Part shown: positions 3,659 to 14,528 of the stretch, piece by piece
Layout of the letters: every line of letters starts with the position of its first letter
Position numbering within the stretch: position 1 is the first letter of the stretch
DNA from: Allobosea sp. CRIB-10
Lineage (GTDB): Bacteria > Pseudomonadota > Alphaproteobacteria > Rhizobiales > Beijerinckiaceae
Reading direction: 5' to 3'
DNA: 64,000 bases
Assembly (NCBI RefSeq): GCF_900112185.1
Contig: NZ_FOKP01000010.1
Location: 62,001-126,000, forward strand
Made by a program: the position numbers and the translations under genes
Notes under the pieces: model-generated
Told to the model about the DNA's origin: nothing
The model's input: only the letters and a program-made list of their open reading frames with translations
Database searches by the model: none

Positions 3659-5541
3659 CAGGCGAACTCCCTGACATCGGCGCCTGGCTTGGCGAGGACG
3701 AGATGGCCGGCGCCGAGGTCGAGATGGGTGAGCGCCTCGCCCTCAGGATCGGGCTTGAAGCCGGCCGGCCAGTGCCGCGTGTCGGAGGCGCCGCCAGGCG
3801 CGGCCAGCTTGAAGTCGAGCTTGCGGTCGAGATCGGCGAAGGGCACCGATTTCAGGAGCGCCTTGGTGTAGGGATGGACCGGCGCGGTGAACAGGGTGTG
3901 GCGCGGCGCGAGCTCGACGATGCGCCCGTTCGCCATCACCGCGATACGGTCGGCCATATAGTTCACCACCGCGAGATTGTGGGAGATGAACAGGAAGGTC
4001 AGGCCGCGCTCGGCCTGTAGGTCCTTGAGCAGATTGAGGATCTGCGCCTGGACCGAGACGTCCAGCGCCGAGACCGGCTCGTCGCAGATGATCAGCTCCG
4101 GATCGAGCGCGAGCGCCCGGGCGATGCCGATGCGCTGGCGCTGGCCACCGGAGAAGGAATGCGGATAGCGTGAGAGGAAGCGCTGATCGAGCCCGACATC
4201 GTCCATCAGCGCCTTGACCCGGGCCTTCTGCTCGGCGCCGTCGCCGCGTTCATGGATGATGAGCGGCTCACGCAGGATGTTCATCACGGTCATGCGCGGC
4301 GAGAGGGAAGAGACCGGGTCCTGGAAGATCATCTGCAGCTTCGGGCGGAAACGGCGCAACTCCTCGCCCTGCAACGAGAGGATGTCGGTGCAGTCCTTGC
4401 CGTCGTCGAAGCGGAGCTCGCCGGAATCGGGCGTCAACGCCCGCATGATCACCTTGCTGAGCGTGGTCTTGCCGCAGCCGCTCTCGCCGACCAGGCCGAG
4501 GCATTCGCCACGCTCGATGTCGAAGCTGACATCGTTGACGGCGGTGACGGTCGAGGTGGTGCCCTTGCCGAAGAAGCGGCTCGAATGGGTCGTGTAGGTC
4601 TTGGTGACATGCCGCACGGAGAGCAGCGGCGCCTGCTGCGCGGCGCCGGGCTGGACCGGTGCCGATTTGGGCGCTGCGGGTGCCCGCGGGCGCGCCTCGC
4701 GCAAAGCGACCAGCCGCTCGCCCTCCTGCATGTCGAAATGCGGCGAGGCCTGGAGCAGGGCCTTGAGATAGGGATGCTGCGGGCGGCGGAAGATGTCCTC
4801 GGCCGGTCCGCTCTCCATGATCTCGCCATGGTAGATCACCACGACCTCGTCGGCCATGTTGGCGACGACGCCGAGATCATGGGTGATCAGCAGGATCGCC
4901 ATGCCCATCTCGGCCTGGAGATCGCGCATCAGGTCGAGCACCTGGGCCTGGATGGTGACGTCGAGCGCCGTCGTCGGCTCGTCGGCGATCAATAGCGCCG
5001 GCTGGCAGATCAGCGCCATGGCGAGCATGGCGCGCTGGCGCAGGCCGCCCGAGAGCTCGAAAGGATAGAAATCGTAGGCGCGGACCGGGTCCTTGAAGCC
5101 GACCCGCTTCAGCATCGCCTCGATCAGGGCGCGCGCCTCCGGCTTCGGCATCGGCCGGTGCAGCAGCAGCGCCTCCTCGATCTGGTTGCCGATCGTGTGG
5201 ACCGGCGAGAGCGAGGACATCGGCTCCTGGAAGATCATGCCGATCCGGCCGCCGCGCAGATCGCGGATCTCCTTGCCCTCGGCCGGCAGTGTGGCGATGT
5301 CGATCACGGCGTCGGGCGTCTGCGGATCGCGGAACAGGATGCTGCCGCCGGTGATGGCGCCGGCGCGCGGCAACAGGCCCATGATCGCCTGCGAGATCAC
5401 CGATTTGCCCGAGCCGGACTCGCCGACGAGCGCAACGGTCTTGCCGGCCGGAATGCGGAAATCGACCCCCTTCACGACATCGCGAGCGAAGCCGTGAATG
5501 GTGAAGCCGATCCGCAGGTCGTTGATCTCGAGAATGTTCAT
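3658..5541 (-). CDS. Fused dual ATPase subunit of peptide ABC importer (YejF/DppDF-like)
   Basis: Cytoplasmic energising subunit with two complete ABC ATPase domains in one 627-residue chain. Domain 1 has Walker A GESGSGKS near residues 40-47, signature LSGGLRQR and Walker [13 protein letters not shown]. Domain 2 has Walker [10 protein letters not shown], signature [14 protein letters not shown] and Walker [13 protein letters not shown]. Both domains end in the peptide-transporter C-terminal extension. I chose the ATG at 5541 because the protein then begins [13 protein letters not shown], as family members do; the open frame continues 96 codons further upstream but that stretch is Arg-rich and unlike the family. 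It is the first gene of the operon and overlaps the binding-protein start by one base. Confidence 0.93.
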
Positions 5542-5830: not shown

Positions 5831-8605
5831 GTGTCCGCGCGTCCGGATGCGGGATGGGAAAGCCCCTTGGAGAGAAGCCTCTTCCGTTACGTCTGGCAGA
5901 AGAGCCGCCGGGAGCAGATCATTGTTCTGCTGGTGATCCTCGCCTCGATCCCGTTCAACTGGCTGTCCTTCGACGTGCCCAAGCGCATCGTCAACGATGC
6001 GATCCAGGGTGGCGCCTTCAAGGACGGCAAGACGACGGCGACGGTGTTCGACTGGACGCTGCATTGGCCGGAGTTTCTCGGCGGCGGCAGCGTCCAGCTC
6101 TTCGAGGGCTTCAAGGTCAGTCAGGTCGGCCTGCTCCTGACGCTGAGCTTCTACTTCCTTGCCCTCGTCCTGATCAACGGCGGCTTCAAATACGTCGTCA
6201 ACCTGCAGAAGGGCGTGCTGGGCGAGCGCATGCTCCGGCGCATGCGCTACGATCTGTTCGGCCAGCTGATGCGCTTCCGGCCTGAGGAAATCCGCTCGGT
6301 CAAGCCGGCCGAGGTGGCGAGCATGATCAAGGACGAGGTCGAGCCGATCGGCAGCTTCGTCGGCGACGCCTTCATCCAGCCGGCGTTCCTGCTCAGCCAA
6401 GCCCTGACCGCGCTCGCCTTCATCATGATGCAGAGCGTCTGGCTCGGCTCGATCGCGCTGGTCATCGTGCTGATGCAGGCGGTGATCATCCCGATCCTGC
6501 GCAAGGAGCAGCTCAGGCTCGGCCGCGAGCGCCAGATCGCCTCGCGCCAGCTCGCGGGCCGGATCGGCGAGATCGTCGATGCCGGGCCCACCATCCAGGG
6601 CAACGGCGCGACCTCCTATATCCAGTCGGACATCGCCGGGCGGCTGGGAGCGCTGTTCGACATCCGCTATGCGCTCTACAAGCGCAAATTCGCCGTCAAG
6701 TTCCTGAACAACCTGATGGCGCAGATCACGCCGTTCTTCTTCTACGCGATCGGCGGCTTCTTCGCCCTGCAGGGCCGGCTCGACATCGGCCAGCTGGTCG
6801 CGGTCATCGCGGCCTATCGCGACCTGCCGCCGCCGATCAAGGAGCTGATCGACTGGGAGCAGCAGCGCAACGACGTCACCATCAAATACGAACAGGTGAT
6901 CCAGCAGTTCAGCCCGACCGACGTGGTCCTGCTGGAGGAGAAGGGCGAGATCGTGCCGCTGCCTCCGCGCGGCGAGATCCGGCTCGACAAGGTCGAGATG
7001 GTCGACAATCGCGGCCAGCCACTGCTGTCACCGCTGAGCCTGACGCTGCGCCGGCCGGGCGAGGTCGCGCTGATCGGGCCGGCCGGCGGCGGCCGGGACA
7101 CGCTCGGCCGCATCCTCGGCCGGCAGACGATGAGCTATAGCGGCCGCATCCTGATCGATGGCGAGCCGCTTGCAGCGATCAGCGTCGAGCGCGCCAGCCA
7201 TCTGATCGGCTATGCCGGTCCGGAGATCGAGATCATCAACGGCTCGCTGCGCGACAACATCTTGCTGCCGCTGAAGCGCAGACGGCCGGTGGTCAAGCCG
7301 GATCGGAGCGTCGACCAGGAGGAGCATCGCCGCTTCATCGAGGCGCTGCGGGCTGGAAACTCTCCGCTTCCGTTCACCGCGGACTGGACCGACTACGAGG
7401 GCGTCGGGCTCGAGGGCGAGGAGGGGCTGGAGGAGCGCCTGCTCGCCGTGCTCGACACGCTCGGCTGCGCCGACGAAGTCTATGAGCTCGGCCTCGACGC
7501 CAAGGTGATCGCGCCCCTGCCCGAGGGAGCAGCCGAGCGCATTATCGAGGCACGCAAAGTGGTCGCCGCCGAATTGACCAAGACCAAGCTCGGCGGCCTG
7601 ATCGAGACCTTCGATCTCGACCGCTACAACGCCAATGCGACGATCGCCGAGAACCTGGTCTTCGGCGCCATGCGCAATGGCCGCCAGCCGGCCGATTTCC
7701 TGCTCGAGGACGCCTATGCCCGCTCGGTGCTGCAGGCCGAGGCGCTGGATGAGCCGCTGGCCGAGATCGGCGGGCGCATTGCCTCGACCCTGGTCGAGAT
7801 CTTCGCCGGCCTGCCCCAGGGCCATGTCCTGTTCGAGCGCTACGCCTTCGGCGGCGAGGTCGATCTCGAGAAGCTCGGCGAGCTCGCCGAGGCGCTGCGG
7901 CGGCATGATCGGCGCAGCCCGCTCGATCCCACCGTGCAGCGCGAGCTGGTCGCGCTGGCGCTCGGCTATGTCGAGCCCAAGCATAGGCTGAACCTGCTCG
8001 ACATCGCGCTGCGGCGGCGGGTGCTGCGCGCCCGGCACAGCTTCAAGACCTATCTGCCGGGCGAGAAGGCCGACGAGATCGAGTTCTACGATCCCGCCGA
8101 CGTGATCCACGGCGCGAGCGTGCGCGACAACCTGCTGTTCGGACGTATCGGCTTCGGCGTGCCCGATGCCGGGCGCAAGGTGGCGGAGATCGCAAGGGCG
8201 GCGCTCTCGCGCGCCGGTCTCGATTCGTCCGCCTACCGTCTCGGGCTGGGCACCGATGTCGGTCTGCGCGGGCGCTATCTGCCGTTGCGGCTGCGGCTGA
8301 TGGTGCCGCTGGCGCAGGCGCTGATCAAGCGGCCCGACATTCTGGTGCTCGACCTCGACGCCTTCGCCGTGACCTGCCCCGATCCAGGCAGCCTGATCCG
8401 CCGGATCGGCAGCTATTGCCAGGACAGAACGACCTTCCTGCTCTTGACCGACCAGGGGTTGGCTGCCGATATCCCTGAGCAGATCCTATTCAATGGAACC
8501 GTGGCCCGGGTGAGCAGCAGGAACGGAACCGTCGACGAGGTGGATGAGCTGCAGGACGGGCTGCCGAGCCTCAACGGCGCTGTTCCGATCGAGGCAAGGA
8601 CATGA
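5831..8605 (+). CDS. ABC-exporter-like membrane protein with degenerate nucleotide-binding domain
   Basis: A 924-residue protein. Residues 1-340 form an ABC-exporter type membrane domain (helices near 29-45, 100-118, 183-222, 300-330). The nucleotide-binding part is longer than normal (about 380-895) and has lost the catalytic residues. The Walker A region at 416-424 reads GPAGGGRDT, with Arg422 in place of Lys. The Q-loop Gln is replaced (YAGPE, 461-465). No LSGGQ is present (YLPLR at 816-820). Walker B ILVLD ends at 841 and is followed by Leu842, not Glu. The H-loop His position is Asp874. The segment that normally follows the Q-loop occurs three times: SLRDNI at 472, TIAENLVFG at 604 and SVRDNLLFG at 763. 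The start is GTG at 5831. It overlaps the cNMP-binding gene (ATGA). Likely a structural or sensor protein rather than an active pump. Confidence 0.85.
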   Translation: MSARPDAGWESPLERSLFRYVWQKSRREQIIVLLVILASIPFNWLSFDVPKRIVNDAIQGGAFKDGKTTATVFDWTLHWPEFLGGGSVQLFEGFKVSQVGLLLTLSFYFLALVLINGGFKYVVNLQKGVLGERMLRRMRYDLFGQLMRFRPEEIRSVKPAEVASMIKDEVEPIGSFVGDAFIQPAFLLSQALTALAFIMMQSVWLGSIALVIVLMQAVIIPILRKEQLRLGRERQIASRQLAGRIGEIVDAGPTIQGNGATSYIQSDIAGRLGALFDIRYALYKRKFAVKFLNNLMAQITPFFFYAIGGFFALQGRLDIGQLVAVIAAYRDLPPPIKELIDWEQQRNDVTIKYEQVIQQFSPTDVVLLEEKGEIVPLPPRGEIRLDKVEMVDNRGQPLLSPLSLTLRRPGEVALIGPAGGGRDTLGRILGRQTMSYSGRILIDGEPLAAISVERASHLIGYAGPEIEIINGSLRDNILLPLKRRRPVVKPDRSVDQEEHRRFIEALRAGNSPLPFTADWTDYEGVGLEGEEGLEERLLAVLDTLGCADEVYELGLDAKVIAPLPEGAAERIIEARKVVAAELTKTKLGGLIETFDLDRYNANATIAENLVFGAMRNGRQPADFLLEDAYARSVLQAEALDEPLAEIGGRIASTLVEIFAGLPQGHVLFERYAFGGEVDLEKLGELAEALRRHDRRSPLDPTVQRELVALALGYVEPKHRLNLLDIALRRRVLRARHSFKTYLPGEKADEIEFYDPADVIHGASVRDNLLFGRIGFGVPDAGRKVAEIARAALSRAGLDSSAYRLGLGTDVGLRGRYLPLRLRLMVPLAQALIKRPDILVLDLDAFAVTCPDPGSLIRRIGSYCQDRTTFLLLTDQGLAADIPEQILFNGTVARVSSRNGTVDEVDELQDGLPSLNGAVPIEART

Positions 8606-9051
8606 CGCTCGAGAGCGATATAGGCTGCCTGAAGTCGATCCCCCTGTTCCGCGGGCTGCCGGGGCCGCGGCTGAAGCTGCTCGCCTTGATGGGCGAGCGG
8701 CTGCATTTCCCGGCCGGCACCGTCATCACCGAAGAGGGCGACAAGCCGGAGGAGGTCTATTGCGTGCTGGAAGGCGAGGTCGAGCTGTCGCATGAGGCGC
8801 CGGAAGGACCGTCAAAGACCTTCCGGCTCGCGAGCGGCAGCCTGATCGGCGACGTGCCGCTGCTCTGCAACCAGACCTATGCGGCGCGGTCCACCGCCAA
8901 GACCGACGTGGTGGCGCTGCGCCTGCCGCGGACATTGTTCTTCGAACTGCTCGACAACATCCCGGAGTTCTCGGTCGCCCTGTCGCGCGACCTCGCCGGC
9001 CGGCTCTACCGGCTGGCGGACTCCGTCCTGCATGGCGAGAAGACACATTGA
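8602..9051 (+). CDS. Cyclic-nucleotide-binding domain protein
   Basis: A 149-residue single-domain protein of the CRP/cNMP-binding fold with no DNA-binding helix-turn-helix. It starts FRGLPGPRLKLLALMGE and continues with the beta-roll repeat FPAGTVITEEGD...VYCVLEGEVEL. The phosphate-binding cassette is SLIGDVPLL (Gly83-Asp84, where CRP has Gly-Glu) followed by ARSTA with Arg96-Ser97, the pair that holds the cyclic phosphate in CRP-like domains. Ligand binding is therefore plausible. The ATG start overlaps the stop of the ABC-like gene, and the cyclase-like gene starts 16 bp downstream, so the product probably works with both as receptor or adaptor. It is soluble and probably cytoplasmic. Confidence 0.9.
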   Translation: MTLESDIGCLKSIPLFRGLPGPRLKLLALMGERLHFPAGTVITEEGDKPEEVYCVLEGEVELSHEAPEGPSKTFRLASGSLIGDVPLLCNQTYAARSTAKTDVVALRLPRTLFFELLDNIPEFSVALSRDLAGRLYRLADSVLHGEKTH

Positions 9052-9067
9052 AGCGCCGGGGGCGCCG

Positions 9068-10825
9068 ATGACGGCGGTTCCGAGCGCGCCAGCGGGAGGC
9101 AGGCCTGTGAGTTCCGGCTTCGACCAGATGTCGTCCTGGAGCCGCGACGTGCGCTTCGTCTCGGGCTGCATCCTGATGGTCTTCGCGACCACGCATTTCC
9201 TCAACCACGCGCTCGGCATCTTCGGCGTCGCGACGATGGAGGCTGTGCAGGACTGGCGCTACTGGTTCTGGCATAGCTGGATCGGCACGGTCGCGCTCTA
9301 CGGCTCGCTGATCGTTCATCCGGTCTTCGCCCTGCTGCGCGTGGCGCAGCGGCGCACCTTCCGGATGCCGGCGCGCGAAGTCGTCCAGATCGTGCTCGGC
9401 GTCGCGATTCCCGTCCTCCTGATCGACCATATCGTCGGCACCCGGGTGCAGGGCTCACTGTTCGGTCAGGACGAGAGCTATCACGCGGTTCTGCGGCGGC
9501 TCTGGCCCGGCCTTGCCCTGTCGCAGAGCCTGCTGCTGCTGCTGGTCTGGACTCATGGCGTCATCGGCCTGCATTTCACCTTCCGGGCGCGCGAGACCTA
9601 TGCGCGCTGGCGCGATCCGTTCCTGCTGGTCGCGATCCTGATCCCGCTGCTCGCCATCATCGGTTTTTCGGTGGCGGGGCGCGAGGCGCAGATGATGGCG
9701 CTGCCGCCCGAGCTCTACACCGCCCAGCAGGTCGACATGTTCAACCTGAACGTGACCTGGGCCAAGCGCGCCTTCTTCGGCCTGATCGGCGGCTTCGCCG
9801 GCTTCGTCGTGCTGCGCGAGCTTCGGGCACGCGCGCTCGGCGCGATCGCGGTGCGCTTCGTCGGCCATGGCGTGCGCCGGGTCATTCCGGGCCCGACCCT
9901 GCTCGAGATCTTCCGGCGCTTCGGCATTCCCCATGCGGCGCTCTGCGGCGGACGGGCGCGCTGCGCCACCTGCCGCGTGCTGGTGCTCGACGGCGCCGAC
10001 GACCTGCCGCCACCCGGCCCGAACGAGGCGCGGCTGCTGCGCCGGATCTCGGCCGGCGACCATGTCCGGCTTGCCTGCCAGATCAGGCCGAAGCGCGACC
10101 TGCAGGTCCAGATCCTGCTCGCCGCCAAACAGCGCGGCGCCGGCCCGAGCGGCGCCATCGACCCCGACGACCGGATCGGCAAGAAAGGGCTGACGGTGAT
10201 GGTCGCTGACCTCAGGGCCTTCACCGCGCTCTCCGAGCGGCAATTGCCGCATGAGCTGATGAACCTGCTCAACCGCTTCTACGACGAGATGTCCCAGGCG
10301 ATCGCGGCGCATGGCGGGCGGATCGAGGCGATCTATGGCGACGGGCTGATGGCGGTGTTCGGGCTGGAGACGACGCCGGCGCGGGCTGGCGCGGCGGCGA
10401 TCGCGGCGGGCGGCGACATGGTGCGCGCCGTCGAGGCGCTCAACCGCGAATACACCAACGCCCTGCCACTGCCGCTGCGCATCGGCATCGGCATCCATGG
10501 CGGCCAGGCGATCGTAGGCGCGGTCGAGAACGAGAGCATGGGGCGGCGCGAGATCACCGTCGGCGAGACGGTGATGATCGCGAGCCAGCTCGAGGCGGCG
10601 ACGCGGCGGCTCTTGTCCGACATCGTCGTCTCCGCCGAGACGGTGAGCGCGACCGGCCGCAGCTATCGCGACACCGTTCCGCACAAGATCGCGGTCAAAG
10701 GCCGCGACAAGCCGATGCAGGTCTACGGCTTCGGCAGCACGCCGGCTGGCGATCCGCGAGCTGACGAGGCGCGTGACGATGGCCGCGGCGCGCCGACGGC
10801 GGTCGTCGAAGAAAAGCCGGTCTGA
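9068..10825 (+). CDS. Membrane-anchored [2Fe-2S] class III adenylate/guanylate cyclase-like protein
   Basis: A 585-residue protein with three parts. Residues 28-250 form about six membrane helices with histidines (43, 47, 69, 84, 121, 163, 169) placed as in haem-b / SDH-type cytochrome anchors. Residues 265-352 are a plant-type ferredoxin domain with Cys293, Cys299, Cys302 and Cys337 (C-x5-C-x2-C-xn-C). Residues 373-556 are a class III cyclase domain. Both metal Asp are present (381 and 425). However, the substrate Lys position is Ala421, the Thr/Asp position is Ile496, the transition-state Asn is Met503 and the Arg is Gln507. Catalysis is therefore doubtful. I started at ATG 9068, just after the cNMP gene. 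The architecture suggests redox or haem sensing. Confidence 0.87.
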   Translation: MTAVPSAPAGGRPVSSGFDQMSSWSRDVRFVSGCILMVFATTHFLNHALGIFGVATMEAVQDWRYWFWHSWIGTVALYGSLIVHPVFALLRVAQRRTFRMPAREVVQIVLGVAIPVLLIDHIVGTRVQGSLFGQDESYHAVLRRLWPGLALSQSLLLLLVWTHGVIGLHFTFRARETYARWRDPFLLVAILIPLLAIIGFSVAGREAQMMALPPELYTAQQVDMFNLNVTWAKRAFFGLIGGFAGFVVLRELRARALGAIAVRFVGHGVRRVIPGPTLLEIFRRFGIPHAALCGGRARCATCRVLVLDGADDLPPPGPNEARLLRRISAGDHVRLACQIRPKRDLQVQILLAAKQRGAGPSGAIDPDDRIGKKGLTVMVADLRAFTALSERQLPHELMNLLNRFYDEMSQAIAAHGGRIEAIYGDGLMAVFGLETTPARAGAAAIAAGGDMVRAVEALNREYTNALPLPLRIGIGIHGGQAIVGAVENESMGRREITVGETVMIASQLEAATRRLLSDIVVSAETVSATGRSYRDTVPHKIAVKGRDKPMQVYGFGSTPAGDPRADEARDDGRGAPTAVVEEKPV

Positions 10826-11458: not shown

Positions 11459-12124
11459 ATGTCCAGCGCGCTACCCGCCGACGCTCTCTACGATATCCTG
11501 CGCGGCGTCGCAGCCCTGACCGGCGATGCGATCGTCGCCGATCTGGCTCGGCTCGTCGGCAAGGGGGCGCCGTCCGATCTATCGATCGCCTTCAACCACA
11601 AGCAGATCGCTTCGAAGCGCTGGCTGGTCGACAGTCTTGCCGAGGTCTTGCCGAAGCCGGATGGACCCGTCTGGGTGCTCGGCGCCTGGCATGGCGTGCT
11701 CGGGGCGATGCTGCTCGCCGACGATCGTCTCACGATCCCGCGCGTGGTGAGCCTCGACATTGATCCGGATTGCGCGCCGATCGCCGAGATCCTGAATCAC
11801 CGCCATGTCGCGTCCGGGCGTTTCCGGGCGGTGACGGCCGACATGATGGGCCTCGATTTCGAGCGCGCCGAGGGCGGACAGCCTGGGCTGGTGATCAACA
11901 CCAGCTGCGAGCACCTCGACGACGTGCCCGGCTGGATCGCCGGCCTGCCCGCCGGATTGCCGCTGCTGCTGCAATCGAACGATTATTTTCGCGAGCCGGA
12001 TCATCGCAGCTGCGTGCCTGCGCTCGACGCCTTCAAGGAACAGGTGGGGCTGTCGGAACTGTGGTTTTCCGGGGCGCTGCCGAGCAAGAACTACACCCGT
12101 TTCATGCTGATCGGCCGCAGATGA
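11459..12124 (+). CDS. Methyltransferase-like protein of unknown function
   Basis: A 221-residue protein. VWVLGAWHGVLGAMLL followed by RVVSLDIDPDCAPIAE is the glycine-rich loop and acidic second strand of a class I SAM-binding fold, and GLVINTSCEHLDD is the motif IV position. No membrane segments are seen. The ATG start at 11459 lies 18 bp from the divergent neighbour. Its TGA overlaps the ATG of the glycosyltransferase gene (ATGA), so the two are translationally coupled and probably act in one pathway of glycan or polysaccharide synthesis. The methyl acceptor cannot be predicted. Confidence 0.75.
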   Translation: MSSALPADALYDILRGVAALTGDAIVADLARLVGKGAPSDLSIAFNHKQIASKRWLVDSLAEVLPKPDGPVWVLGAWHGVLGAMLLADDRLTIPRVVSLDIDPDCAPIAEILNHRHVASGRFRAVTADMMGLDFERAEGGQPGLVINTSCEHLDDVPGWIAGLPAGLPLLLQSNDYFREPDHRSCVPALDAFKEQVGLSELWFSGALPSKNYTRFMLIGRR

Positions 12125-13392
12125 GCACCGAGGGGGCCGAGGGGCCGGCGGTCGCGATCGCGATGAAGGGCTATCCGCGCCTGTCGGAGACCTTCATCGC
12201 CCAGGAACTGCTCGGCCTGCAGCGGCTCGGTCTGCCCTTCGCGATCTGGTCGCTGCGTCATCCGACCGACGGCGCGCGGCACACGATGCACAAGGAGATC
12301 GCGGCGCCGCTGCATTATCTGCCGGAGTATCTGCACGACGACTGGCCGCGCGTGCTGCGCGGCATCGTCAGCGCCTTCGCGCGGCCGAGCATCATCAGGC
12401 TGCTAGGTGTCTTCCTTCGCGACCTGTCCCGAGACCGCACGCGCAACCGGCTGCGCCGCTTCGGCCAGGCCTGCGTGATGGCCCATGAGTTGCCGGCAAG
12501 CACGCGCCATCTCCATGTGCACTACCTGCACACGCCGGCCTCGGTGATCCGCTACGCGGCATTGAGCCGGGGCCTGACCTGGTCATTCTCGGCCCATGCC
12601 AAGGACATCTGGACGACGCCGGACTGGGAGAAGCGCGAGAAGATCGCTGATGCGCGCTGGGGCGTGACCTGCACCCGCGACGGCCATGCCGAGCTTACCC
12701 GCCTCGCCGAGCGGGCAGACAAGGTGGCGCTGCTCTATCACGGGCTCGATCTCGCACGCTTTCCGGCTCCGCCCGAGGCGCGCGCGCCGCGCGACGGCTC
12801 AGATCCGACTGAGCCGGTGCGGTTCATCACCATCGGGCGGGCGGTGGCAAAGAAGGGGTTCGACGACCTGCTCGCGGCGCTGGCGATCCTGCCGGCCGAG
12901 CTGAACTGGCGGCTCGTCCATATCGGCGGGGGCGAGATGCTCGCCGTCTTGAAGGCGCAGGCCGAGACGTTGGGGCTCGCCACGCGGATCGAGTGGCGCG
13001 GACCGCAGGCGCAGGATGCGGTGGTCGCGGCGCTGCGCGAGGCCGATCTCTTCGTCCTGCCTTCGAAGCAGGCGGAGAATGGCGATCGCGACGGCCTGCC
13101 CAATGTGGTGATGGAGGCGGCTAGCCAGGCCCTGCCGATCGTGGCGACCGATTTCGCCGGCATCCCGGAATTCGTGCAGCATGGCCGTGAGGGACTATTG
13201 TTGCGGCCGAGCGATGTCACAGCCTTGGCCAAGGCCCTGGACGGGCTCGCCCGCGATCCGCAATGGCGCGCGAAACTCGGCGACGCGGCCTTCAACAGGC
13301 TGAGGACCGAGTTCTCGGCGCAAGCCGGGCTGGAGCGGGTGTATCGGGCGCTGCGCGAGGCGGTCGCCGGCAAGGGCGCCGCCGCGTCATGA
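12121..13392 (+). CDS. GT4-family glycosyltransferase
   Basis: A 423-residue retaining glycosyltransferase of the GT-B fold, family 4 type. N-terminal acceptor half: MKGYPRLSETFIAQELLGLQ, a motif common in colanic-acid/WcaL-like enzymes. C-terminal donor half: FITIGRAVAKKGFDDLLAAL, then ADLFVLPSKQ...GDRDGLPNVVMEAASQALPIVATDFAGIPE, the EX7E-type nucleotide-sugar site. I used the ATG at 12121, which overlaps the upstream stop. The frame is open 117 codons further upstream but over the other gene. It is coupled at its 3' end to the next glycosyltransferase by another ATGA. Probably adds a sugar during exopolysaccharide or surface-glycan assembly; donor and acceptor unknown. Confidence 0.87.
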   Translation: MSTEGAEGPAVAIAMKGYPRLSETFIAQELLGLQRLGLPFAIWSLRHPTDGARHTMHKEIAAPLHYLPEYLHDDWPRVLRGIVSAFARPSIIRLLGVFLRDLSRDRTRNRLRRFGQACVMAHELPASTRHLHVHYLHTPASVIRYAALSRGLTWSFSAHAKDIWTTPDWEKREKIADARWGVTCTRDGHAELTRLAERADKVALLYHGLDLARFPAPPEARAPRDGSDPTEPVRFITIGRAVAKKGFDDLLAALAILPAELNWRLVHIGGGEMLAVLKAQAETLGLATRIEWRGPQAQDAVVAALREADLFVLPSKQAENGDRDGLPNVVMEAASQALPIVATDFAGIPEFVQHGREGLLLRPSDVTALAKALDGLARDPQWRAKLGDAAFNRLRTEFSAQAGLERVYRALREAVAGKGAAAS

Positions 13393-14528
13393 GCGCGAGC
13401 ATCCTGATCACGGTCACGCATCTGCTCGGGATCGGCCATCTCGTGCGGGCGAGGCAGCTGGCGCGGGCACTGGCCGCGGCGGGCCATGAGGTTACGCTCG
13501 CCAGCGGTGGCATGCCGGACGGCAAGGCGGCAGCGGTTTATCGTTTCGTGCAATTGCCGCCGGTGCGCACGCAAGGCACGGATTTCCGCAATCTGCTCGA
13601 CGAGGACGGAAAGGCCGCTACGTCGGAGCGACTGGCCGCACGGTGCGAGCAACTGGTCGCACTGGCGCGCCAGCTTTCGCCGGATATCGTCGTCACCGAA
13701 CATTTCCCGTTCGGCCGACGCCAGCTCGCTGGCGAGTTCCTGGCGCTGATCGAGGCTGCGAAGGCGGCCAGGTCGGGCGTACTTGTGCTGGCTTCGATTC
13801 GCGACGTGCTGGTCGCGCCGCTTCGCCCGGAACGATTGGCCGAGACGGCCGAGCGGATCGCGACGCTGTTCGATGCGGTGCTGGTGCATGGCGACCCACA
13901 AGTCCTGCCGCTCGAAGCCTCCTGGCCGGTGACACCGGAGATCGCCGTTAAGCTGGTCTATACCGGCTATCTGGCGGAACCCCCCGCATTGCCGGGGACC
14001 CCAGCAGAGTCGTCGCGGACGATCCTCGTTTCCGGCGGCGGCTCGGCGGCAGCCCTGCCGCTGTTCAAGGCCACGCTCGCCGCGGCGCGGCTGCTGCCGC
14101 AGCGGCCCTTCCATCTGCTGATCGGCCGCGGCATCTCGGAGGCCGACTTTACCGCCCTGCGACAATCGGCTCCTGACAACGCCAGGGTCGAATGGGCGCG
14201 CCCGGATTTCCCGGCGCTGCTCGCCGCCTGCTCGCTGTCGATCAGCCAGGCGGGCTACAATACGGTGCTCGACCTGTTACAGGCCGGGCGGCCGGCGCTG
14301 CTCGTTCCCTTCGACGCCGGCAACGAGACCGAGCAGGCCCTGCGCGCTGCGGCGCTGGAACGGGCCGGGCTGGCGCGCGTCGTGACACTTGCCGAAGGGC
14401 CGCAGGCACTGGCTTGTGCGATCGAAGCAGCGCTGGTGCAGGGCGCGCCGCCGGCCGCGCGGGTCGATCTGGACGGCGCAGCCGGCGCCGTCGCCGCTAT
14501 CGCCAGGCTGCTCGCGAGCCGCGCCTGA
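13389..14528 (+). CDS. MurG/GT28-like glycosyltransferase
   Basis: A 379-residue GT-B enzyme. The N-terminus ILITVTHLLGIGHLVRARQLARAL carries the GxGH loop of MurG/GT28 and related enzymes. The C-terminal half has ILVSGGGSAA, then LLAACSLSISQAGYNTVLDLLQAGRPALLVPF, the donor-site segment seen in glycosyltransferases that act on lipid- or anthrone-linked acceptors. The ATG at 13389 overlaps the stop of the GT4 gene. It is the last gene of the three-gene coupled set. A role in glycan or glycolipid synthesis is inferred from family and context; the substrate is unknown. Confidence 0.85.
   Translation: MSASILITVTHLLGIGHLVRARQLARALAAAGHEVTLASGGMPDGKAAAVYRFVQLPPVRTQGTDFRNLLDEDGKAATSERLAARCEQLVALARQLSPDIVVTEHFPFGRRQLAGEFLALIEAAKAARSGVLVLASIRDVLVAPLRPERLAETAERIATLFDAVLVHGDPQVLPLEASWPVTPEIAVKLVYTGYLAEPPALPGTPAESSRTILVSGGGSAAALPLFKATLAAARLLPQRPFHLLIGRGISEADFTALRQSAPDNARVEWARPDFPALLAACSLSISQAGYNTVLDLLQAGRPALLVPFDAGNETEQALRAAALERAGLARVVTLAEGPQALACAIEAALVQGAPPAARVDLDGAAGAVAAIARLLASRA

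Follow-up and report, generated by a model that had tools for sequence, protein, structure and literature searches.

Near the beginning of the window, by which we mean the whole analyzed stretch of 64,000 nucleotides from Allobosea sp. CRIB-10 (contig NZ_FOKP01000010.1, positions 62,001 to 126,000), three co-directional genes form one packed unit. Gene 1 codes for a pseudo-ABC protein (pABC), i.e. a membrane protein resembling exporters of the ATP-binding cassette (ABC) type; gene 2 for a stand-alone cyclic nucleotide-binding (CNB) protein; and gene 3 for a CyaC-type protein. The Pfam domains are ABC_membrane and ABC_tran in gene 1, cNMP_binding in gene 2, and Fer2 and Guanylate_cyc in gene 3. 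Genes 1 and 2 share an ATGA overlap at 8602-8605, and genes 2 and 3 are separated by 16 bp (9051 vs 9068), a spacing that agrees with the packed unit described in an earlier note made from the sequence alone. Gene 1 probably starts at TTG 5867 and not at GTG 5831, because the common first Met of the family aligns there and a gene caller based on codon usage chooses this site. A scan of the unit gave no promoter-like and two terminator-like sites, which is no excess over shuffled sequences. The explanation that we rank best, if only tentatively, is that the device of the order Hyphomicrobiales is a membrane protein built on an ABC scaffold and controlled by cyclic nucleoside monophosphates (cNMP), and that the Bosea unit, to which the copy in the window belongs, may relay a redox signal by protein contacts.

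Features of the three-gene unit and of its neighbors in the window (aa, amino acids; TM, transmembrane)
Feature	Position	Strand	Remarks
Gene 1, pseudo-ABC exporter-like membrane protein	5831..8605	+	924 aa from GTG 5831; probably 912 aa from TTG 5867
Gene 2, stand-alone CNB protein	8602..9051	+	149 aa; D84 in place of Glu, Y93 in place of the phosphate-binding Arg
Gene 3, CyaC-type protein	9068..10825	+	585 aa; His-bearing TM domain, Fer2 [2Fe-2S] domain, degenerate class III cyclase domain
Importer ATPase, oligopeptide/YejF type	3661..5541	-	two ABC_tran and oligo_HPY; divergent neighbor
GT4 glycosyltransferase	12121..13389	+	of a kind found near pABC-CNB in many Alphaproteobacteria
GT28-like glycosyltransferase	13389..14525	+	member of the GT4/GT28 neighborhood near pABC-CNB

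The protein encoded by gene 1 possesses an exporter-type transmembrane domain (TMD) at about residues 13-360 (PF00664, E 1e-11; BmrA, MsbA and others align), followed by two halves of a degenerate nucleotide-binding domain (NBD; about 380-485 and 781-890) which are split by an insert of about 300 residues. The complete Walker A motif and the Walker B motif with catalytic Glu that mark an active exporter are absent: R422 occupies the position of the Walker-A Lys and L842 that of the catalytic Glu, just as the earlier note had read this protein, namely as exporter-like but without its ATPase residues. Relatives of gene 1 were found in 89 of the 297 order genomes, in 128 of 337 genomes (87 of 242 genera) of a sample of the class, and in 28 of 299 genomes of a phylum sample, where the single one outside the class is a TMD match. 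Our alignment comprises 139 rows: 109 from the order (the window being counted twice, as WIN and L001) and the 30 best-scoring members from other orders (L172-L201). None of the 139 combines a GK[ST] Walker A with a DE Walker B. In the order, 3 of the 109 rows retain the Walker-A Lys and 9 the catalytic Glu, with both in a single row. Nowhere in the sample are the ATPase motifs complete, and erosion has gone furthest in this order; the loss is graded. We had considered ATPase loss as a feature of the whole class, and dropped it because most members outside the order retain the Walker-A Lys.

Invariant positions are concentrated in the membrane domain; 50 of the 62 listed invariant columns fall in the TMD. 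Within the insert (in the region of residues ~440-800) the Q-loop/helical entry motif is present three times, an internal enlargement that is unusual for an ABC domain. Compared with one another as sub-alignments of a single alignment, so that the values are rough, the second and third copies match with a probability of 99.3 (E 3e-20), the first and third with 94.9, and the first and second with 81. Furthermore, there are TMD-only paralogs of gene 1 that have no NBD, in reading frames of 350-507 aa: one in the window's own genome (L168:7623-8981) and three in two other genomes of the genus Bosea, one of which has two (L169:8748-10268, L170:8474-9862, L171:8853-9902). Further TMD-only matches appear in the class and phylum samples.

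The rows from other orders are less decayed: 23 of the 30 have the Walker-A Lys, 17 the catalytic Glu, and 13 both, so that nucleotide binding by relatives outside the order is possible. In these rows the position next to the Lys holds Glu or Asp in 27 of 30, and the Walker-B Asp is replaced by Asn in 23 of 30; the combination is a consistent, unusual variant of a nucleotide site. Hence pABC could bind nucleotide without fast turnover and act as a sensor, or pair with an active ABC half, for which heterodimeric ABC exporters that have one degenerate site set a precedent. An LSGGQ-like signature, too, is kept in a few rows. We consider this decidedly unlikely here, as the Lys is lost in 106 of the 109 order rows and no exporter half was found next door among the neighboring ABC proteins that were scanned. 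Those neighbors (in the window, L072, L073, L074, L086, L089, L091, L118, L121 and L238) are all importer ATPases of the YejF type and were rejected as exporter partners; the scan left out 9 of the 17 order-level reading frames of 115-160 bits as well as weaker matches.

The CNB domain of gene 2 is clear (PF00027, E 3.5e-18), but its phosphate-binding cassette lacks the residues on which binding of cAMP or cGMP is judged, the Arg being replaced by Tyr93 and the Glu by D84. A HMMER alignment to PKG sets Tyr93 on the Arg position, and the alignment to relatives agrees. The phosphate-binding Arg-Ser that the earlier note took to be kept was therefore a misreading: the pair in question, R96-S97, sits three residues beyond the true position. 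In the wider family the Arg is retained in 122 of 126 deduplicated rows, which exclude the main copy of Bosea and include six fused second copies of that genus, and it is mostly followed by Thr. The Bosea group has it in none of 35 loci (Tyr in 18, Phe in 9, Asn in 4, Thr in 3, Ala in 1); 24 of these loci are L001-L024, one per genome, and some strains are counted twice.

Gene 3 belongs to the CyaC type, an already described kind of protein. Among NCBIfam models, NqrF matches the Fer2 part, and an SdhC model of the b558 type matches weakly (23.6 bits, cut-off 96). Its membrane helices bear conserved His residues, and they are accompanied by a Cys-x5-Cys-x2-Cys...Cys motif; His43, 47, 84, 121 and 163 and Cys293, 299, 302 and 337 are invariant in 15 of 15 rows. 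These residues provide the ligands expected of the CyaC type, i.e. at least four His for two haems and four Cys for a [2Fe-2S] cluster, both cofactors being predicted. An AlphaFold model places His43/47, 84, 121 and 163 on four helices of the TM part, which is the sole good part of the model. A fold search with the model finds class III cyclases among the best 50 of 470 matches, in a low-confidence part of the model.

The cyclase domain of gene 3 keeps both metal-binding Asp residues (D381, D425), but not the remainder of the active site that goes with the CyaC type, since Lys has become A421, Asn M503 and Arg Q507. Four solved cyclases aligned to gene 3 carry Lys (Glu in Cya2), Asn and Arg at the substituted positions. 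Ala or Ser, Met and Gln replace Lys, Asn and Arg in 11 of 11 complete cyclases of the Bosea group. Seven CyaC-type relatives retain Asp, Lys, Asp, Asn and Arg, and seven other cyclases of the order are without Lys and Asn, with the Arg still there in five. Hence, of the six-helix, [2Fe-2S], cyclase-like protein that the earlier note described, the redox-type architecture stands, with invariant His and Cys, but the cyclase is without its Lys, Asn and Arg. In the tree of gene 1, the 16 tips with a cyclase called degenerate group together as a single clade (support 1.0); for six of them, all Bosea, the call follows the genus, as their sequences do not cover the cyclase end of gene 3. The seven non-Bosea tips of this clade retain the CNB Arg; because such lineages combine a degenerate cyclase with this Arg, the cyclase decayed before the CNB site. 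At two loci (L070:3837-5330, minus strand, and L071:3647 onward), the membrane and [2Fe-2S] parts of a CyaC-type protein occur several kb off the cassette on the other strand, and a cyclase domain was not found in them.

These genes are linked across relatives. For the order we inspected 100 loci (L068-L167), which are 94 of the 98 places of the order search plus six second copies taken from genomes of Bosea; the four omitted places are two main copies of Bosea and two fragments at contig ends. A CNB is adjacent to or fused with pABC in all 100: adjacent on the same strand in 81, present as a C-terminal fusion in 18, and in one a neighbor lying within an over-extended reading frame. For loci of other orders of the class (L172-L201), it is adjacent in 28 of 30, one of the two misses lying on a short contig and the other having none that was found; in the 20 of these loci fetched as longer stretches (L219-L238) it is adjacent in 18. 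The natural pABC-CNB fusions are L079-L081, L083, L118, L119, L137 and L157-L167, six of which are second copies in genomes of the genus Bosea. The earlier note had named a finding that the genes lie mostly apart in other genomes as a reason to abandon the coupling; they do not lie mostly apart.

Of the 82 unfused loci of the order, 76 are flanked by 5 kb or more to either side, and we called a cyclase at 60 bits or more to the class III profile. By this measure 43 of the 76 (24 of 41 genera) have a class III cyclase less than 5 kb downstream on the same strand, and none has one within 5 kb upstream. The window's own genome has three PF00211 places in 6.33 Mb. The cyclases of the cassette are of the CyaC type, of a type with Lys for Arg (27 rows), and of a few others. 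A protein with metallo-beta-lactamase fold follows directly after the CNB in 49 of the 76 loci. A member of this metallo-hydrolase family matches PF12706 and models of ribonuclease Z, and it reaches 41 bits against a model of a cyclic-nucleotide-degrading phosphodiesterase with a cut-off of 400; to regard it as a candidate cyclic-nucleotide phosphodiesterase is a guess. A WGVRGSIP motif is carried by L122:6869-7762 and its relatives. In addition, DUF3095 proteins (PF11294) lie near the cassette at L094:3531-4730 and seven other loci, with class III cyclase-like motifs recognized by eye.

Within the genus, gene 1 was matched in 24 of 25 genomes, one match having an internal stop within the searched stretch. 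Gene 3 was detected in 18 of the 19 genomes searched, and in all 18 its coordinates put it immediately downstream of gene 1 and on the same strand; the sole genome without it (G015) is also the one without gene 1. Since gene 3 adjoins gene 1 in 18 of 18, the order of the genes is no matter of chance, and the coupled, conserved set proposed earlier holds for the genus. Near relatives are represented by ten named loci at 71-94% identity, among them Bosea lupini, and the ratio of nonsynonymous to synonymous substitutions (Ka/Ks) was computed against seven of them (L031-L034, L037, L038, L040). It amounts to 0.00-0.21 for all three genes against L031-L034 and L037, with most values under 0.2. By these ratios, purifying selection among near relatives preserves all three Bosea proteins.

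These results bear on the idea that the operon is simply heading towards pseudogenes. It would account for degraded active sites in three proteins and for the Ka/Ks of the CNB, which climbs to 0.72 against the most distant relative used. We find it barely credible and already largely refuted, given the presence of gene 1 throughout all but one of the genomes searched, Ka/Ks far below 1 against near relatives, and the fixation of identical cyclase substitutions in all complete rows. Neither is a sequencing error or a single broken copy at hand. The earlier note had named complete active homologs of the ABC-like and cyclase-like proteins as a sign of such an error. Intact homologs exist for genes 2 and 3, yet the changes are common to many genomes and hence are not errors; with residue losses shared by the whole genus and low Ka/Ks against near relatives, both possibilities were ruled out.

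What kind of signal, then, could such a unit carry? The earlier note proposed that an active, redox-regulated cyclase produces a cyclic nucleotide which acts via the CNB on the pseudo-exporter, Bosea included. The set of domains and the gene order fit this model, residue-intact versions exist in related genera, and the Bosea cyclases retain both metal Asp residues. For the Bosea unit it is nonetheless quite improbable, with Lys, Asn and Arg of the cyclase replaced in 11 of 11 complete sequences and the Arg of the CNB in 35 of 35 loci. Cyclic-nucleotide signaling thus remains a good description of the wider family, where the CNB Arg is nearly constant and intact cyclases adjoin in other genera, but not of the copy in the window, where the residues of both proteins are lost.

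The explanation we prefer accommodates both sides. Gene 1 would be a membrane protein of ABC-exporter fold which, at least in this order, has ceased to be powered by ATP hydrolysis, and the CNB subunit would be its ligand sensor, so that in Hyphomicrobiales cNMP binding, not ATP hydrolysis, most likely sets the state of the membrane protein. We suggest this because the pair is often accompanied by a class III cyclase of its own and by a metallo-hydrolase whose fold is shared by cyclic-nucleotide phosphodiesterases; many pairs in the order may accordingly have a dedicated cyclase and possibly a dedicated phosphodiesterase. In the Bosea clade, a cyclase of the CyaC type with haem and [2Fe-2S] would have become the partner before the nucleotide chemistry went. 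The cyclase active site, and then the CNB site, lost key residues, presumably with the loss of activity, while the redox ligands stayed invariant. The proteins would form a complex, in which a respiratory redox signal most likely passes from the CyaC-like protein to the pseudo-exporter via protein contacts. Since selection kept the proteins after the nucleotide chemistry was lost, the function that most likely remains is a redox signal passed on by contact. One can go further and propose a cNMP-controlled family on the ABC fold, in which the CNB took over from ATP, with erosion partial elsewhere in the Alphaproteobacteria and complete in Hyphomicrobiales, and with the Bosea scaffold run directly by a haem/[2Fe-2S] pseudo-cyclase; this bolder version is conceivable, though somewhat doubtful.

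Several observations weigh against our explanation, beginning with the less decayed ATPase motifs outside the order and the nucleotide binding that they may permit. None of the 14 flanked fused loci has a downstream cyclase on the same strand; counting either strand, a cyclase lies downstream in five and upstream in five. The 20 longer stretches from other orders of the class show one cyclase within 7 kb, on the opposite strand, and one weak match 11 kb off; loci at class level being mostly without a nearby cyclase, cNMP control there would need a distant one. The AlphaFold models are poor (mean predicted local distance difference test scores of 53 and 45, from alignments of 10 sequences), and only the TM part of gene 3 is reliable. 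Ka/Ks rises with distance, to 0.21-0.32 against L038 and 0.42-0.72 against L040, and is highest in the CNB. The ratios against L040 are probably inflated, because from L038 to L040 Ks is almost flat whereas Ka approximately doubles or more; even so, they count against strong long-term constraint on the CNB. Some activity may persist in the degenerate cyclase or CNB, or either may bind a different ligand. Finally, our explanation makes no use of the glycosyltransferases, which are the most widely common neighbors after the CNB.

Because of this prevalence, participation in glycan assembly has to be taken seriously, as a rival or as a complement. According to this view, the pseudo-exporter belongs to the neighboring glycan machinery (GT28, GT4, GT4) and carries or senses a glycolipid, tuned by CNB and cyclase. 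Members of three related glycosyltransferase clusters occur within the retrieved sequence at 70 of 98 loci of the order (37 of 49 genera) and at 16 of 18 class loci, and GT4 and GT28 genes are also present in the window. In general, most of these neighbors are encoded on the strand opposite to the cassette, and active flipping would be unexplained without a working ATPase; we therefore rate the glycan role as unlikely, but it is compatible with the explanation that we prefer and does not exclude it. Genes of YejF-type importers recur near the cassette as well, on the side opposite to the glycosyltransferases.

ABC exporters are defined by ATP-driven motion. If our explanation is true, a widespread family of ABC fold with eroded ATPase, a kept TMD and a near-constant CNB would be a case of this fold moved by a ligand other than ATP, in concept similar to CFTR or to cyclic-nucleotide-gated channels. 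The Bosea version would be a test case for a signaling module that survives the loss of its second-messenger chemistry, and it would connect a redox sensor of respiratory type with a membrane protein encoded close to a conserved cluster of glycosyltransferases.

A three-part set of this kind is not described among the matches listed in the open-licence literature, which is weak evidence of absence; the parts taken singly have known counterparts. Compared with the type IV exporters BmrA and MsbA, the TMD and NBD halves of gene 1 align (BmrA with E ~3e-18, the MsbA model far below its cut-off), whereas its ATPase motifs are incomplete and it contains the insert of about 300 residues with entry-motif repeats. 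The best single-domain match of solved structure to the CNB of the window is 5d1i, named 'Cyclic nucleotide-binding protein' and presumably from Brucella. Its score with the CNB family profile is 117 bits, whereas seven other CNB-domain proteins from pABC loci reach 64-87, and it has Arg at the position lost in Bosea. A CNB domain coupled to an ABC exporter fold is also found in HetC of Nostoc PCC 7120, whose CNB is unresponsive to cAMP and reported to bind ppGpp (PMC10986499). HetC differs, as described there, in its N-terminal CNB, its C39 peptidase and an ATPase with essential catalytic Glu; members of the pABC family have incomplete motifs and a separate or C-terminal CNB, and gene 1 matches no Pfam peptidase family at E <= 1 and has no complete ATPase motifs. 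For gene 3, the counterpart is CyaC of Sinorhizobium meliloti (SMc01818), which has an anchor of six TM helices, two haem b, a [2Fe-2S] cluster and a class III cyclase, and responds to quinone (PMC10463352). The architecture and the invariant His and Cys of gene 3 match this description. CyaC as described is an active cyclase encoded beside the regulator genes cycR and smc01817, unlike the Bosea protein, which is without Lys, Asn and Arg and stands beside pABC-CNB. CyaC and HetC are the nearest described systems known to us, and gene 3 alone is of a described type.

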